Shown piece by piece: positions 1 to 62,404 of a DNA stretch of 64,000 bases. The translations under genes were made by a program, and so were the position numbers. Position 1 is the stretch's first letter. Every line of letters begins with the position of its first letter. The notes beneath the pieces are model-generated. The model made no database searches, was not told where the DNA came from, and saw only the letters and a list, made by a program, of their open reading frames with translations. The DNA is taken from assembly GCA_005862225.1 (NCBI GenBank), contig SZXV01000010.1, positions 186,001 to 250,000 of the forward strand, in the 5' to 3' direction. This DNA is from Chlorobium sp. (lineage in GTDB: Bacteria; Bacteroidota; Chlorobiia; Chlorobiales; Chlorobiaceae).

Positions 1-2
1 TT

Positions 3-29
3 GAAAAAGCCCGCGATATTTTCAGTTAA
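3..29 (+). CDS. 3' end of an upstream gene (partial)
   Basis: Frame 3 reads EKARDIFS and then TAA at 27-29, fifteen bases before an intrinsic terminator. That placement suggests the tail of a gene lying left of the window. Only eight residues are visible, so no function can be given. Confidence 0.35.
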   Translation, partial: EKARDIFS

Positions 30-43
30 GATCCTGACAAAAG

Positions 44-77
44 AAAAGGCCGGTTTGTTTCCGGCCTTTTTCTTTTT
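44..77 (+). terminator. Intrinsic terminator
   Basis: A perfect 10-bp stem (AAAAGGCCGG at 44-53, CCGGCCTTTT at 61-70) with a 7-nt loop runs into a T-rich tract to about 79. It would end the gene entering from the left edge. Confidence 0.8.
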
Positions 78-90
78 TTCCTGTTCAGTT

Positions 91-216
91 GGCAATACCT
101 GCCAGCAGCTCTGCCAGCTCACATGCATCCCCAGTGCAACCTGACTCCCCTTCCGTTTGTGCAATAACGTTGACGATATTGCGCACAACATCTTTCCTGA
201 CTTCGCCACATTTCGC
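91..216. repeat. Displaced copy of malic-enzyme 3' end (left copy)
   Basis: Positions 91-195 match 4023-4126, the last ~100 bases of the malic-enzyme gene, at roughly 90% identity by eye. Positions 196-216 match 3912-3932, the sequence just beyond that gene, in 20 of 21 bases. In the left copy the two pieces are joined directly, in the opposite order to the right-hand locus. The copy has no open frame and is decayed. The left and right copies bracket the transposase remnant and adhesin cassette at 284-3709. Confidence 0.8.
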
Positions 217-283
217 TTAAATCGTACCCTCCGGAAAATAACTCATTATTTATCATAGGGTTCACTAACTGTATTTTTTCCCT

Positions 284-721
284 ATGCGTGGTGACTTGAC
301 AATCAGGAAGGTTAAAACCGCTTCAAGGGCAACCGCCGTTCAGGTTGTCCGCAATGAGGGAAAGAAGCGGGCCATCATCAGGCACTTAGGCAGCGCTCAC
401 AGCGAAAGTGAATGCGATCTCTTGCTGGCTGAGGCTGAATCCTATGCCGAAGCGCATAGCAGACAACCGAACATGTTTGCCGGGATATCGGCGCCGGCCA
501 TACCCTCATCGCCACTGGATCCATCCCACGCCAAGCTTGTCAGCGTAACGCACCAGTTTTCCCGAAACGTCCTGCTTGCCTGTGCCCGAAAATGCGGCCT
601 TGGCGGCTTGCCGGAGTTGTATCTGGATCTGGCTCTCATGCGCATCATTGAACCGACTTCAACGATGCGCACCCTGGAGTTGCTATTAGCCCTGCAGTGC
701 CACTACTATGTTTTTTTTTAA
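284..721 (+). pseudogene. IS1634-like transposase, N-terminal remnant
   Basis: The first ~45 residues (TIRKVKTAS, ATAVQVV, IRHLGSAHSESE) match the opening of IS1634/IS4-superfamily transposases, which normally read like xIRKVxTxSGATAVQVV...HIGSAHxExE. The segment LDLALMRIIEPTSTM matches the conserved 'LxRIIEPTSK' block near residue 110. The frame then ends in a run of T at 145 residues, whereas full-length family members are about 450-600 residues. The catalytic DDE core is therefore missing. This is a dead fragment, but it shows that an insertion sequence once entered this island, just ahead of the adhesin genes. Confidence 0.75.
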
Positions 722-4126: not shown

Positions 4127-5230
4127 GTTAAAGGCAGTCGGCATAAGGTGGTCATGTGTCGGTTCGATGGAATAGGCAATTGAGGTCGCTACAGCCATTT
4201 TGATTTCCGGAGTAACCTTTTTAATGCCGCTTGTAAAGAGGCCCCGGAACAATCCGGGAAACACAAGCGCATTATTCACCTGGTTTGGCATATCGGACCG
4301 ACCCGTTCCTACAATGCTTGCTCCTGCCTTGTAGGCAAGCTCAGGCATGATTTCCGGCTCAGGGTTTGCCATGGCAAAGATAAATGGCGAACTGTTCATC
4401 CCCTCAATCATGGCAGGAGTCACAATATTGCCGATAGAGACGCCAACAAAAACATCTGCGCCAATCAGCGTACTCGGCAAATCACCCTTGTGCTTCGCCT
4501 TGTTACTTATTTGAGCAATATTCTGTTTAATGGCATTCATACCCGGACGGCCATCATAAATTGCTCCCTGCGTATCAACCAGAACCACCTCTCTGACCTG
4601 AGCATGAATCAAGAGCCTTGCAATGGCAATCCCCGCAGCTCCGGCACCATTAATGACTATGGACAACTCTTTCAGCTCCCGTCCTGTTACCCGACAGGCA
4701 TTGATGATGGCAGCCAGAGTAACAATAGCCGTTCCATCCTGGTCATCATGAAAAACCGGAATGGATAACTCTTTTTCAAGGCGCTCAAAAATTTCAAAAC
4801 AACGCGGTGCTGAAATATCTTCAAGGTTTATGCCTGCAAAACTTGGCTCAATAAGTTTGCAGAATTTCACAATATCTTCAACATCGGTAGAGTTGATGCA
4901 GAGCGGAATAGCATCGATATCCGCAAACTCCTTAAATATTATGGATTTGCCCTCCATGACCGGCATCGCTGCTTCCGGGCCAAGGTCACCAAGACCCAGA
5001 ATAGCCGTCCCGTCAGACACAATCGCAACCTGATTGGCCCGGTTGGTCAAGGTATAGGATTTTTGCTTGTCCAAGCCAATTTCCATGCAAACGGCAGCCA
5101 CACCGGGTGTATACGCCAACGACATGTCGTTTTTGGTCATTAAATCAACCTTCGACTTTATTTCAATCTTTCCCCGTGTTTTGAGATGTAACTCTATTGA
5201 TTTTTTAGAATAATCCTTATTCGTCAACAC
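4007..5230 (-). CDS. NAD(P)-dependent malic enzyme
   Basis: Catalyses oxidative decarboxylation of malate to pyruvate, a link between the reductive TCA cycle and pyruvate in green sulfur bacteria. The 407-residue protein has the short bacterial malic-enzyme layout: the YTPGVA motif with the catalytic Tyr (40-45), Lys in EGKSIIFKEF (~95), metal-binding acidic residues in NLEDISAP (135-142) and HDDQDG (161-166), and the Rossmann NAD(P) loop INGAGAAG (193-200). The start is GTG at 5230, preceded by AGGGGAG; TTG at 5227 is an alternative. The gene stands alone on the minus strand. Its last ~100 bases are duplicated at 91-195. Confidence 0.93.
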   Translation of the reverse strand: MLTNKDYSKKSIELHLKTRGKIEIKSKVDLMTKNDMSLAYTPGVAAVCMEIGLDKQKSYTLTNRANQVAIVSDGTAILGLGDLGPEAAMPVMEGKSIIFKEFADIDAIPLCINSTDVEDIVKFCKLIEPSFAGINLEDISAPRCFEIFERLEKELSIPVFHDDQDGTAIVTLAAIINACRVTGRELKELSIVINGAGAAGIAIARLLIHAQVREVVLVDTQGAIYDGRPGMNAIKQNIAQISNKAKHKGDLPSTLIGADVFVGVSIGNIVTPAMIEGMNSSPFIFAMANPEPEIMPELAYKAGASIVGTGRSDMPNQVNNALVFPGLFRGLFTSGIKKVTPEIKMAVATSIAYSIEPTHDHLMPTAFNKDVVRNIVNVIAETEGKSGCTGDECELEELLAGIPDFAS

Positions 5231-57617: not shown

Positions 57618-57810
57618 AATTGATCATTTAGTTGATACCTTCACCCCGTGAACCGTGAACTTATTCACCGAAAAAGGCTTACTGTTTTTAGGATTAAATA
57701 ATTGAAACTGAATTTATGCTTTTAGAAAGACAATAGAAAATGGTTTTCAAAAAGTCACGCCAAGAGAACATTTTCTTTACCCAATCTCAGACTTTCCTGT
57801 CCATGAACGA

Positions 57811-58173
57811 TTACTTGTTAATGTACCCCTTACAGTGAGAAGCGCCACAACTACATTCGAATGGGGCTGCTATAGTGGACTCATTGAGCGAGTAATCGAA
57901 GGTGATCTCATCACCAATATTAATATCTCTAAGCGCAATCATAAGCTCTCGCGTTTTGTCAATGTAGCACGAAGGGTCACAATGATGGTTGACATATCTG
58001 CCAAAAGGATGGTCAATGTGTCGTGTCGATAGCTCAATAGTCCTGAGATCGCGAGTTGGACTTACATCACCCATGCTGAGATCCATTACGATTTCACCTT
58101 CTTTGTAATAATTGACAGCATAGACTCCCAAGAATCCCTTGCCTTTACCCACACCAATGCCAAAAACCTTCAT
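57811..58173 (-). CDS. Minimal SET-domain protein (SET 3 of the cluster)
   Basis: A protein of 120 residues, essentially a bare SET domain. GKGKGFLGVYAVNYYKEGEIV holds the first SAM loop (residues ~10-29). VNHHCDPSCYID (61-72) replaces the usual NHSC with NHHC. DEITFDYSLNE (88-98) carries the catalytic Tyr, and CSCGASHCKGYI (107-118) is a post-SET-like zinc knuckle. It is a predicted lysine methyltransferase on a protein or peptide. It is last in the minus-strand cluster, 105 bases after the ABC gene, so it may have its own promoter. Confidence 0.85.
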   Translation of the reverse strand: MKVFGIGVGKGKGFLGVYAVNYYKEGEIVMDLSMGDVSPTRDLRTIELSTRHIDHPFGRYVNHHCDPSCYIDKTRELMIALRDINIGDEITFDYSLNESTIAAPFECSCGASHCKGYINK

Positions 58174-58278
58174 TATAACCGGGTTAGATTTTGTTAAACA
58201 TTTCTATAATATAGCTTAAAGCCATTATACGCCTTTTATCTCAGCTTCCCGCCATTGGACATGCAAAAAAACTGTCGT

Positions 58279-60039
58279 CTATACGCTTGTGCATGTCACA
58301 TCTGATTCATCAAGTTTTTCGGAGTGATTCCAAAAGCGCATATACAAACCATTATTGTTTAAGAGTTGGGCATGGGTACCCTGTTCAACGATAGATCCTT
58401 TGTCTATAACAAAAGTCATATCCGCCTCAACTGCCAAATTAAGTTTATGGGTAATTGCCACTATCGTGCATTGGCTCCGGAGTTTCAGGATGGTTTTCAG
58501 GATTTCTTGCTCGGTCAGTGGATCAAGTGCGGATGTAGCTTCGTCGAGAAGCAGCATCAGGGGTTCACGCACCAAAGCGCGTGCCAGTGCAATACGCTGG
58601 CGCTGACCACCAGACAACAGCCCGCCTGATTCGCCGCAAAGTGTTTCGTATTGCTCAGGCAGTGAAATGATGAAGTCATGTATTTCTGCCAACTTTGCAG
58701 CCTTTTCTATAGCCTCCTGATCTGCATCCAGTTGGCCCATGCGGATATTTTGTGCAATAGAGAGATTAAAAAGATTGACTTCCTGGGCAACAATGCCAAT
58801 GCAATCGCGCAGTAACCTGGGATTGAGCAGACTGCTTGCCATTTTATTTATAAGAATAACCCCTGTAGTGGGTTCATAAAAACGCAGCAGTAAATTGATG
58901 AGGGTGGTTTTGCCTGCTCCGCTTGGACCGACAAAAACCGTGAAGCTTTTTGGGTCGATTTGGAAACTGAGGTCATTCAAAACCGACTGGCCGTTGTTGT
59001 AGGAAAAACCAACATGGCGATATTCCACTGCCCCCGTAAAGCAAAACAATTCATTATCATAGTGCTGCTCTCCTGACGGAAGAGGTATCTCTAACACTTC
59101 CTGCAAACGTTGCATGGCGGCCTTTGCGGATGAAAGGTTCGGAATTATCCAGGTCATGTGGTTAATCGCGGCACTCAAGCTGACAAAAATAATCTGGTAG
59201 GAGACCAGGGAGCCAACAGACATCTTGCCCTGCATCACAAGCAACCCGGCTGCAAACAGAACAAGTATATTTAACAGCAAAAAAGCCAAATTTGGCATCC
59301 GCTGTGAGATGTAGGAAAAAAAATTAGCTCTGCTTGCAACTGACACGAATTGGTTAAGCTGTTCACGGTATTGCCCGGTGACATGGTTTTCCAATCCATA
59401 AGCACGGATCATTTTAAAGGCGCTCAGATGTTCTTGTAAAAACACTCCCAACTGCCCGTTATAACGGCACAATTCATAATTGGTACTGTTGGTTTGCCTG
59501 GCAAAGAGCCTGGGTGAAAAGAGGCACAAAACTATACCGAACAGGACGCCGGAAAATAAAAGTCGACTGAGCTGAAACAGCAGTGCTGAGGAAACCAGTA
59601 ATTCACCTATGCTGAGGAAAGCGGCAGGCAGAACGATCACAAGGGCGTTATCAACAGTCGCTGCATCCGAGGAAAACCGCGACATCAGGTCACCAGTGCT
59701 TTGCCGCTCGTGGTATTCCAGTGGCAGCAACTGCAAATGGCGGAAGAGATCATGGCAAAGATCGCTGAAAATCCTGGAACCATATTTTGCCCAATAGTAA
59801 TCACAAGTGACAGAAAAAAAGCTGTAAACCAGACCACCCAATCCAAACAGGGCGAAAAGCATCACAAAAATATCCAGCTTATTTTTCAGGATAACATCGT
59901 CAACCAGAAACTTGAGACTATAGCGCAACCCCGCCTCGTAACAAAACTCGACAGTTAATCCCAGCAGGATGAACAGGACGTACCAACGATAAGGGCGAAT
60001 GTATTGCCACAGAGCAACTGCAAACTTAAGATTACTCAT
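58279..60039 (-). CDS. ABC exporter (fused TM and ATPase)
   Basis: A half-transporter of 586 residues. Six TM helices lie in ~15-310, and the nucleotide-binding domain in ~340-575 has Walker A VGPSGAGKTTLINLLL, signature LSGGQRQRIALARAL and Walker B LMLLLDEATSALD. There is no N-terminal C39 peptidase, so it would not itself cleave a GG leader. The family covers lipid, drug and peptide exporters. Its place inside the SET/ATP-grasp cluster suggests it exports that cluster's product, which is inference. Confidence 0.92.
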   Translation of the reverse strand: MSNLKFAVALWQYIRPYRWYVLFILLGLTVEFCYEAGLRYSLKFLVDDVILKNKLDIFVMLFALFGLGGLVYSFFSVTCDYYWAKYGSRIFSDLCHDLFRHLQLLPLEYHERQSTGDLMSRFSSDAATVDNALVIVLPAAFLSIGELLVSSALLFQLSRLLFSGVLFGIVLCLFSPRLFARQTNSTNYELCRYNGQLGVFLQEHLSAFKMIRAYGLENHVTGQYREQLNQFVSVASRANFFSYISQRMPNLAFLLLNILVLFAAGLLVMQGKMSVGSLVSYQIIFVSLSAAINHMTWIIPNLSSAKAAMQRLQEVLEIPLPSGEQHYDNELFCFTGAVEYRHVGFSYNNGQSVLNDLSFQIDPKSFTVFVGPSGAGKTTLINLLLRFYEPTTGVILINKMASSLLNPRLLRDCIGIVAQEVNLFNLSIAQNIRMGQLDADQEAIEKAAKLAEIHDFIISLPEQYETLCGESGGLLSGGQRQRIALARALVREPLMLLLDEATSALDPLTEQEILKTILKLRSQCTIVAITHKLNLAVEADMTFVIDKGSIVEQGTHAQLLNNNGLYMRFWNHSEKLDESDVTCTSV

Positions 60040-60077
60040 ATCAGCCCAAGAGAAAGGATGTTATCGCGCTCACAACT

Positions 60078-61556
60078 CTATACTGATGTCAGGGAAAGTC
60101 CGGCAATCCGTGTTTTGACATAATCAGAAACATGCCCCCGGTAGCGCAACATAAAGGGAAGCATGGCATCATTGCCTGTAATGATGTGACGGCACTCAGT
60201 TTCCCCGCATGCACATTCAAATTCTTCCATCGTAGCATGGCAGAACGTGGCATAATCGATAGTGATTTGTTCTCCGGAAGCGATAAAACGACGGGCTACA
60301 AGATTCATGTTTTCAAGCCAGGCATCGGGATTACAGGAGTGGTTAATGGGCTTCCAGTCACGAGGATATTTGCTCCACATCACCCAGATTTCATCGGTGA
60401 TCGGGTAAGCATATTGACGCAACCAACGCAACTGTTGAGCATTCCAATGTTTCTCGGCATAACTCAGCGATACCAGAACATGCCCTTGCTCTTCAAAGGG
60501 CTCGATAAGCTCACCCGGCTCAATATCCCGTGTTGCGTACATACCGTAAGCACCTCGCTGGCAATATTTTATCGCCCAGCTTTTCAGGCGGCTCCGACAG
60601 CGTTTCCATGCCGCTTCCTGCAACAAGCGAATAAATTCCTCGTGACCATCAGGGTAATTGAACAGGATAAAATCAGCACTTCCCGCATCTTCAGGGCTAT
60701 AGAACACCCCGCAGTTGGGATTGATTTCCAGCATAAACAACTCTCCATCACCATTCATCCGAATATCGCATCGGCCATAGCCGGAACCATTCAAACCAGT
60801 AAACATTTGAGCAGATATGGTTCGCAGACGATTGTCAAGCTCGGGGTTGTCTACCGGAATGCAGTTCATGTCCTGGTAGTTGGACCATTTCAGATCAAAG
60901 TGCTTGAAAGATTCACCTTCCGGAAATACAAACTCAACAGCAGGGAAAACGACAGGGTTGGACGGGTCTGCGGCATTCTCTGCGACCAGTACCGTAAACT
61001 CTCTGCCTTCAACAAATTCTTCAATCAATGCCTCACCAAACTCCTTGATCATTCGGTTAGCTTCCTCGTGCAATGCCATTGGTGTTTCTACACGGGATGT
61101 ACGGGTCATGCCAATACTTGCATAACTGTTTGGATGTTTGACAATAAGGGGAAATCTTAAATTTTGAGCAGCTTCCTCAATATCCGCCTCCGTTATCACA
61201 AAGCGATGCAGCGGTGTCTCTATACCATAAGAGCGGGCGACACGTTTCATGTCTTCACGGGTCGGATCGTAAAAATCAGAAGCCGCACCAGTAAAAGGCG
61301 CATTAAAATATTCAAGTGTCTGCACCACCTCTATACCTGCACAGTCTGAATCAAATGAGCCATCGCAGAGATTGATGAACAAATCGAAACCCTGCTGGAT
61401 GAGTGTTCGTACCTGTTGAACGGCAGTAGCTTTATGAATGTCAGCCATGTCAACTTCATGATCCTTCAGATAGGGTTTTATACCCCTCAAAGGGTCATAA
61501 TCTTTTGTCGGAGAATCAGAATATTCATAGGAAGAGTAGAGTACACATATTTTCAT
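60078..61556 (-). CDS. ATP-grasp ligase fused to a SET methyltransferase domain
   Basis: About 492 residues from the ATG at 61556; a longer frame overlaps the upstream gene and is unlikely. Residues ~1-315 are a D-Ala-D-Ala-ligase-like ATP-grasp: the ATP-binding strand IVKHPNSYASIGMT (138-151), EEFVEGREFTV (179-189), and Mg-binding Asp264, Glu277 and Asn279 in CDIRMNG and LEINPN. Residues ~335-465 are SET: GMYATRDIEPGEL, NHSCNP (405-410), ITIDYAT with Tyr435, and Zn Cys448/450/455. It could ligate a carboxylate to an amine and methylate a lysine. I know of no characterised enzyme with this fusion. Confidence 0.9.
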   Translation of the reverse strand: MKICVLYSSYEYSDSPTKDYDPLRGIKPYLKDHEVDMADIHKATAVQQVRTLIQQGFDLFINLCDGSFDSDCAGIEVVQTLEYFNAPFTGAASDFYDPTREDMKRVARSYGIETPLHRFVITEADIEEAAQNLRFPLIVKHPNSYASIGMTRTSRVETPMALHEEANRMIKEFGEALIEEFVEGREFTVLVAENAADPSNPVVFPAVEFVFPEGESFKHFDLKWSNYQDMNCIPVDNPELDNRLRTISAQMFTGLNGSGYGRCDIRMNGDGELFMLEINPNCGVFYSPEDAGSADFILFNYPDGHEEFIRLLQEAAWKRCRSRLKSWAIKYCQRGAYGMYATRDIEPGELIEPFEEQGHVLVSLSYAEKHWNAQQLRWLRQYAYPITDEIWVMWSKYPRDWKPINHSCNPDAWLENMNLVARRFIASGEQITIDYATFCHATMEEFECACGETECRHIITGNDAMLPFMLRYRGHVSDYVKTRIAGLSLTSV

Positions 61557-61566
61557 AGCAGTGTTA

Positions 61567-62073
61567 TCAATTAGTGTCAGTGTTATCAACAAATCGTTGT
61601 TCCAATAGCTGCTCATGAAGTTTTTCCATGATATGTGGTGTGAATTTGTAACGAGGCAGCAAATTCCTGTTCAAATACATCGCCCCTTTAATTTCACCTA
61701 AACAGTTCGCACTTCTGCACGCACAATGAAAAACCTGCTCCATAGCCCATTCAGTCGAAGGATAAAAAAAGGTAACCTCTTCATTCGCATCGATATCACG
61801 AAGGCATATAATCTCATGACGAGTTACATCAACATAAACATTAGGGTCGCAACTGTGATTGAGATATTGAAGAAATTCTGGTTCGAGATGAATATGGCGA
61901 TGATGGTCTATTTGCAGAGAAAGATAGGTTGGGTGAGCGACATACTCTCGAACAGAAAACTTATGTAACAAAGATCCCGCTGTATGCGTGCAGGTAGCGC
62001 GCAAATGATGTTGACCAGAAACAGGATCAATATAGAGGGCAAGTTTTTCAGTAAGTTCTGATAATTTTATCAT
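61567..62073 (-). CDS. SET-domain protein (SET 1 of the cluster)
   Basis: A protein of 168 residues. It has NHSCDP (72-77), an FFYPSTEW strand with the catalytic-region Tyr104, and CACRSANC (117-124) as post-SET-like zinc site. The usual N-terminal GxG SAM loop is hard to see, so this copy is divergent (CTHTAGSLLHKF near 28-39 may replace it). It is followed after 10 bases by the ATP-grasp-SET gene and is probably co-transcribed. Three SET proteins of different divergence in one locus is unusual in bacteria. Confidence 0.85.
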   Translation of the reverse strand: MIKLSELTEKLALYIDPVSGQHHLRATCTHTAGSLLHKFSVREYVAHPTYLSLQIDHHRHIHLEPEFLQYLNHSCDPNVYVDVTRHEIICLRDIDANEEVTFFYPSTEWAMEQVFHCACRSANCLGEIKGAMYLNRNLLPRYKFTPHIMEKLHEQLLEQRFVDNTDTN

Positions 62074-62404
62074 TTATAAAAAAAATTTCATTCTTTGTTA
62101 TCAATTAATAAACGGAAAATAACAAAAAAAAGACAGTAAAGCAGAAGAAGCACTCAATCTCTCCCTATTGATGACCTCATTCAGCCGCGTACCTCGGCAA
62201 TTACAGTGACTATTACTGGAATACAAATTTCCTTGAAGCCCTTAGCGTAGCATCATAGCCTCCAGTACCAGAGTCTGTTACACAAGTGCAACTGCACAAC
62301 CGGGCATCTTCGGTAACTGTTGAATGGAAAGCATAGAAGATCTGGGATGGTTTTGTTATAATGACTGCACAAGTGTTCTGGCGGTACTGTTCATACTCAA
62401 AAAA
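62074..62404. other. Intergenic region between the SET operon and rluD
   Basis: About 330 bases holding the divergent promoters of the two operons. The minus strand has an open frame (stop at 62213) that reads a Cys-rich peptide, with LCSCTC near its middle and GTGGYD after it. Its only ATG (62410) lies inside rluD, so it is not called as a gene. Confidence 0.45.

Follow-up and report, generated by a model that had tools for sequence, protein, structure and literature searches.

In a window of 64,000 nucleotides from Chlorobium sp. (contig SZXV01000010.1) a single gene encodes a protein that joins an ATP-grasp domain to a SET domain, with the catalytic residues of both retained, and this gene belongs to a four-gene cassette that was inserted into the genome as a unit and that also encodes two stand-alone SET proteins and an ABC exporter. 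The fusion recurs in distant lineages, where it is repeatedly associated with SET, ATP-grasp and ABC-type proteins. We propose, at about even chances, that the fused protein is a bifunctional ligase-methyltransferase whose product, a small methylated peptide or amino-acid conjugate, is exported.

Domain architecture and conservation of the fused protein

The mechanically called open reading frame of the fusion starts at 61616; we prefer the ATG at 61556, from which the protein reads MKICVL..., because its homologues start there. Two Pfam profiles match above their curated cut-offs: in the numbering of the longer ORF, Dala_Dala_lig_C covers residues 145-303 (E 8e-19) and SET covers residues 357-455 (E 2.5e-10). 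These matches and the intact frame bear out the preliminary description of the two domains as fused in one enzyme. The residues singled out there, namely D264, E277 and N279 in the ATP-grasp half and the NHSC motif at 405-408, Y435 and C448, C450 and C455 in the SET half, are present and correctly numbered for the 492-residue protein. The same description had proposed that a loss of catalytic residues across homologues would speak against it, and an alignment of 50 fusions reveals no such loss: K104, K140, E179, R262, D264, E277 and N279 of the ATP-grasp half, and N405, H406, C408, Y435, C448, C450 and C455 of the SET half, are invariant in all 50 sequences, with less strict conservation at S407 (47/50) and E180 (49/50). 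The fusion thus belongs to the ATP-grasp superfamily by its profile match and its ATP- and Mg-binding residues, and to the SET methyltransferases by its profile match, N-H-x-C motif, catalytic tyrosine and post-SET cysteine triad.

Among nine genes of the Chlorobium group the median dN/dS is 0.085 for the ATP-grasp half and 0.088 for the SET half, against 0.34 for the linker and 0.36 for the tail; purifying selection is therefore equally strong on both halves. Together with the retained catalytic residues, these ratios indicate that the fusion is neither a chance reading frame nor a decaying one. An AlphaFold2 model of the fusion built from nine sequences had a mean pLDDT of 36 and was discarded.

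Organization and insertion of the cassette

The four genes of the cassette (Table 1) are co-directional on the minus strand in the order SETa > fusion > ABC exporter > SETb, separated by gaps of 10, 38 and 105 bp. The transporter combines the membrane (PF00664) and ATPase (PF00005) domains in a single chain, as is characteristic of a full-length ABC exporter.

Table 1. Coordinates of the cassette genes in the window and domain boundaries of the fused protein
Feature	Position	Strand	Description
SETb, small stand-alone SET protein	57811..58173	minus	120 aa
Full-length ABC exporter	58279..60039	minus	586 aa; 38 bp downstream of fusion
Fused enzyme	60078..61556	minus	492 aa; intact ORF
Fusion, ATP-grasp domain	residues ~1-304		
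Fusion, variable linker	residues 305-335		
Fusion, SET domain with post-SET Cys triad	residues 336-465		followed by tail
SETa, stand-alone SET methyltransferase	61567..62073	minus	168 aa; 10 bp upstream of fusion; best PDB match by sequence, BurB
Inserted four-gene cassette, approximate extent	57777..62237		between bchI and divergent pseudouridine synthase gene (called rluD)

The limits of the cassette were taken as the points where homology to cassette-free relatives breaks. In seven such relatives (L186-L192) bchI lies next to the pseudouridine synthase gene in divergent orientation, and homology of the window to these genomes ends near 57,776 and 62,237. This empty site in seven sister genomes indicates that the four genes arrived as one insertion of ~4.46 kb. 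The GC content of the cassette (about 0.40-0.48) is below that of most of the flanking DNA (0.47-0.54), and the bchI-side flank is common to the window and one further carrier (L006), the other carriers having different flanks.

At another locus (L008) the cassette is flanked on either side by pieces of the pseudouridine synthase 5' region (3-138 and 4694-4936), a pattern that could reflect a target duplication or an effect of assembly. In four more cassette-free relatives (L182-L185) the bchI-side match is separated from the pseudouridine synthase gene by ~1.3 kb of other DNA, and this site may be a hotspot. The genome of the window encodes a further SET protein outside it (L051:8095-8547), between genes for OsmC-like and Fe-ADH proteins. 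A search of the 300-bp flanks and of the gap between the ABC exporter and SETb for a precursor peptide of a graspetide-type RiPP found no small ORF common to the Chlorobium loci.

Phyletic distribution and conserved gene neighborhoods

A scan of genome contigs recovered the fusion from seven Chlorobiaceae at 82-93% identity and from one Gemmatimonadota genome at 48%. The culturable strain Chlorobium ferrooxidans DSM 13031 is a carrier of the cassette. Of the 61 genomes in the genus of the window, 9 possess the fusion; in one Bacteroidota family (f8) it occurs in 73 of 244 genomes, distributed over 37 of 101 genera; three further families with the fusion emerged from a broader draw of genomes. 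Searches of plasmid and phage proteins and two scans of viral contigs returned partial matches only and no fusion. ATP-grasp ligase operons are already known, as is the architecture combining a SET domain with a ligase in the eukaryotic, apparently inactive TTLL12; this was the only such case found in the open-access literature, which yielded no description of a catalytically intact bacterial ATP-grasp/SET fusion, an absence that is not proof. Reviews by the Aravind group on ATP-grasp amidoligases and on SET evolution may mention such neighborhoods.

The search for the same domain pair and its neighbors that the preliminary description had called for thus shows the fusion recurring across lineages in cassettes with SET, ATP-grasp and ABC-type proteins. 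The order SETa > fusion > ABC exporter > SETb is kept in the Chlorobium relatives wherever the contig is long enough. In the f8 family the conserved order is SET > ATP-grasp > fusion > ABC_membrane_3 protein: at all 37 loci a separate ATP-grasp gene lies upstream of the fusion, at most of them a SETa-like gene adjoins, and at about half a protein with only the transmembrane ABC_membrane_3 domain follows the fusion. An ABC_membrane_3 protein without its own ATPase domain adjoins the fusion at L045:8384-9274 and L046:11419-12300.

Four divergent genomes (L013, L175, L176 and L177) contain no relative of the SET, ATP-grasp or ABC proteins of the cassette around the fusion, within a search of roughly 7 kb or less per side (for L013 only about 1.3 kb downstream). 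The persistence of the fusion without such partners nearby suggests that the paired activities are self-sufficient. In one of these genomes (L176:2541-8292) genes for an FGase, a MATCAP/DUF1704 protein and an ATP-grasp protein of the glutathione-synthetase type (GSH-S) come after the fusion on its strand, an arrangement seen in this genome only. This ATP-grasp is of another type and was not picked up with the cassette proteins as queries.

These neighborhoods bear on the possibility that the fusion merely secures co-expression of two enzymes of one pathway that act on different intermediates, the substrate being neither shared nor channeled. As stand-alone SET and ATP-grasp proteins adjoin the fusion, the steps can be carried out by separate proteins, and the rapid evolution of the linker (omega 0.34) means that no tight interface is evident. 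Against this, the fusion has been kept over distant lineages and persists in the four divergent genomes lacking nearby partners. We consider such a purely organizational role rather unlikely.

Relationships of the ATP-grasp half

Both by family profile and in the PDB the ATP-grasp half matches Ddl enzymes best, sharing with them the ATP-grasp core and alignable ATP- and Mg-binding residues. These matches would favor a D-alanine-D-alanine ligase, or a resistance-type Ddl/Van variant, to which a regulatory SET domain has been added, yet several lines of evidence make this very improbable. The best score of the fusion against the curated Ddl/Van families is 81 bits, far under every cut-off (243 bits needed), and at the position of the Ddl motif EVNTxPG it has LEINPNCGVFY, a different substrate loop. 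In a tree of ATP-grasp domains, which was rooted only at the midpoint and carries a warning of long branches, the fusions and their partner ATP-grasps are split from all the rest, Ddl included, at 100/99, the fusions alone being grouped at 99/95. Moreover, two genomes (G033 and G091) encode a Ddl-like protein separately, in addition to the fusion. On the basis of the cut-off scores and the tree, identity as a D-Ala ligase was rejected.

In TTLL12, too, a single chain carries a SET-like domain together with a ligase domain that is ATP-grasp-like, but in the opposite order and with a ligase of the TTL rather than the Ddl type; the ligase of the fusion is N-terminal and matches Dala_Dala_lig_C, which separates it from the TTLL12 type. 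Critical residues are absent from both domains of TTLL12 and no activity has been detected (PMC3520985).

Relatives of the SET domains

SET domains are known chiefly as protein (histone) lysine methyltransferases, and the fold of SETa also resembles eukaryotic enzymes of this kind. Its closest solved relative is BurB (PDB 9l4t/9l4v), a SET-domain methionine S-methyltransferase that methylates free methionine in DMSP/malleicyprol biosynthesis (PMC12542666). BurB is the top PDB match of SETa by sequence, with moderate similarity (E 1.5e-13, 54 bits), and by Foldseek (5.8e-7), the latter with a low-confidence model of SETa (pLDDT 60). In VIA-align other SET proteins rank beside BurB with near-tied Z scores, so BurB is not singled out by that list. 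Both SETa and BurB are small stand-alone bacterial SET proteins with a post-SET cysteine triad; they differ in that BurB has LHSC where the cassette SETs have NHSC, and BurB lacks the fusion to a ligase. 

Three stand-alone SET relatives encoded on plasmids adjoin genes of small-molecule biosynthesis: one lies beside a polyketide synthase, an aminotransferase and an aldehyde dehydrogenase, a second beside a GHMP kinase, a PLP enzyme and an alanine racemase, and a third beside an asparagine-synthase-like gene and an AdoMet decarboxylase. Two other plasmid SET relatives that were examined have no biosynthetic context. NmbA, the N-methyl-bacillithiol synthase of green sulfur bacteria, was also considered but, being a Class I methyltransferase, was set aside.

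The prevalence of protein lysine methylation among SET enzymes, and the canonical NHSC motif and tyrosine kept in the fusion, would fit an enzyme that modifies proteins, its ATP-grasp half attaching an amino acid to some target protein in the manner of TTL/TTLL ligases and its SET half methylating a lysine on that target. We regard this as unlikely, given that by profile the ATP-grasp half resembles Ddl, that the cassettes contain an ABC exporter or an exporter-type transmembrane protein, that free methionine is the substrate of the closest solved SET relative, and that no obvious protein target is present within the cassette.

Functional predictions

In the ligase-methyltransferase that we propose, the ATP-grasp half would activate a carboxylate as an acyl phosphate and join it to the amine of an amino acid or short peptide, a chemistry predicted from its domain family, and the SET half would use SAM to methylate that small product or one of its building blocks. 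Within the genome of the window SETa and SETb might add to or diversify this methylation, and the ABC exporter would move the product out of the cell. The target is thus predicted to be a small molecule rather than a protein, and the order of the steps is likewise conjectural. We count in favor of the proposal the invariant catalytic residues and equal purifying selection, the conserved gene orders and unit insertion, BurB as the best solved match of SETa, the three plasmid SET proteins adjoining biosynthetic genes, the neighbors in L176, and the four divergent genomes that keep the fusion without nearby partners. To be set against it are the moderate similarity to BurB and its lack of the asparagine of NHSC, the resemblance of the SETa fold to protein-lysine methyltransferases, the two plasmid SET proteins without biosynthetic context, and the roughly half of the Bacteroidota loci in which no transmembrane neighbor was detected.

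The preliminary description went further and held that the fusion implies a common substrate; the fused enzyme itself stands, and the implication was too strong. From the sequence evidence it is plausible that both halves act on the same substrate, and the indirect basis for this is the persistence of the fusion at 35-52% identity over distant lineages, its presence without nearby partners in the four divergent genomes, and the cassettes with additional SET proteins, ATP-grasp and exporter.

More tentatively, and with the balance slightly against it, the fusions might represent a widespread, undescribed class of bacterial natural-product enzymes in which ATP-grasp and SET domains act in turn on one small molecule to produce SET-methylated peptides. 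If so, SET domains would regularly tailor peptide metabolites, beyond their role in protein methylation. BurB provides the precedent for a SET domain acting on a free amino acid, and a conserved SET domain joined to a ligase of the peptide-bond type, within a transferable cassette that includes an exporter, would carry this chemistry over to small-peptide metabolites, in a concrete and testable system in green sulfur bacteria and other bacteria of the Bacteroidota group.

Other operons with Ddl-like ATP-grasp proteins

Conserved operons with two ATP-grasp genes, a GNAT and a lysine-2,3-aminomutase (KamA), in this order, were observed at 15 of 23 Ddl-like ATP-grasp loci from other Bacteroidota families (L048, L050, L116, L117, L120-L122, L124, L125, L128-L132 and L135), and their product is possibly a beta-lysine-derived peptide or osmolyte. 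They resemble the cassettes in that Ddl-like ATP-grasps in tandem are accompanied by a group-transfer enzyme, but contain an acetyltransferase and a lysine aminomutase instead of SET proteins and an exporter, and their ATP-grasps form separate clades. An origin of the fusion from these tandem ATP-grasps was rejected, since the tree places them apart. On a plasmid of Thioflavicoccus mobilis (L167, 1467-6948) a Ddl-like ATP-grasp gene lies beside genes for a diaminobutyrate transaminase, SbnA, an ornithine-cyclodeaminase-like protein and a KamA-family protein.
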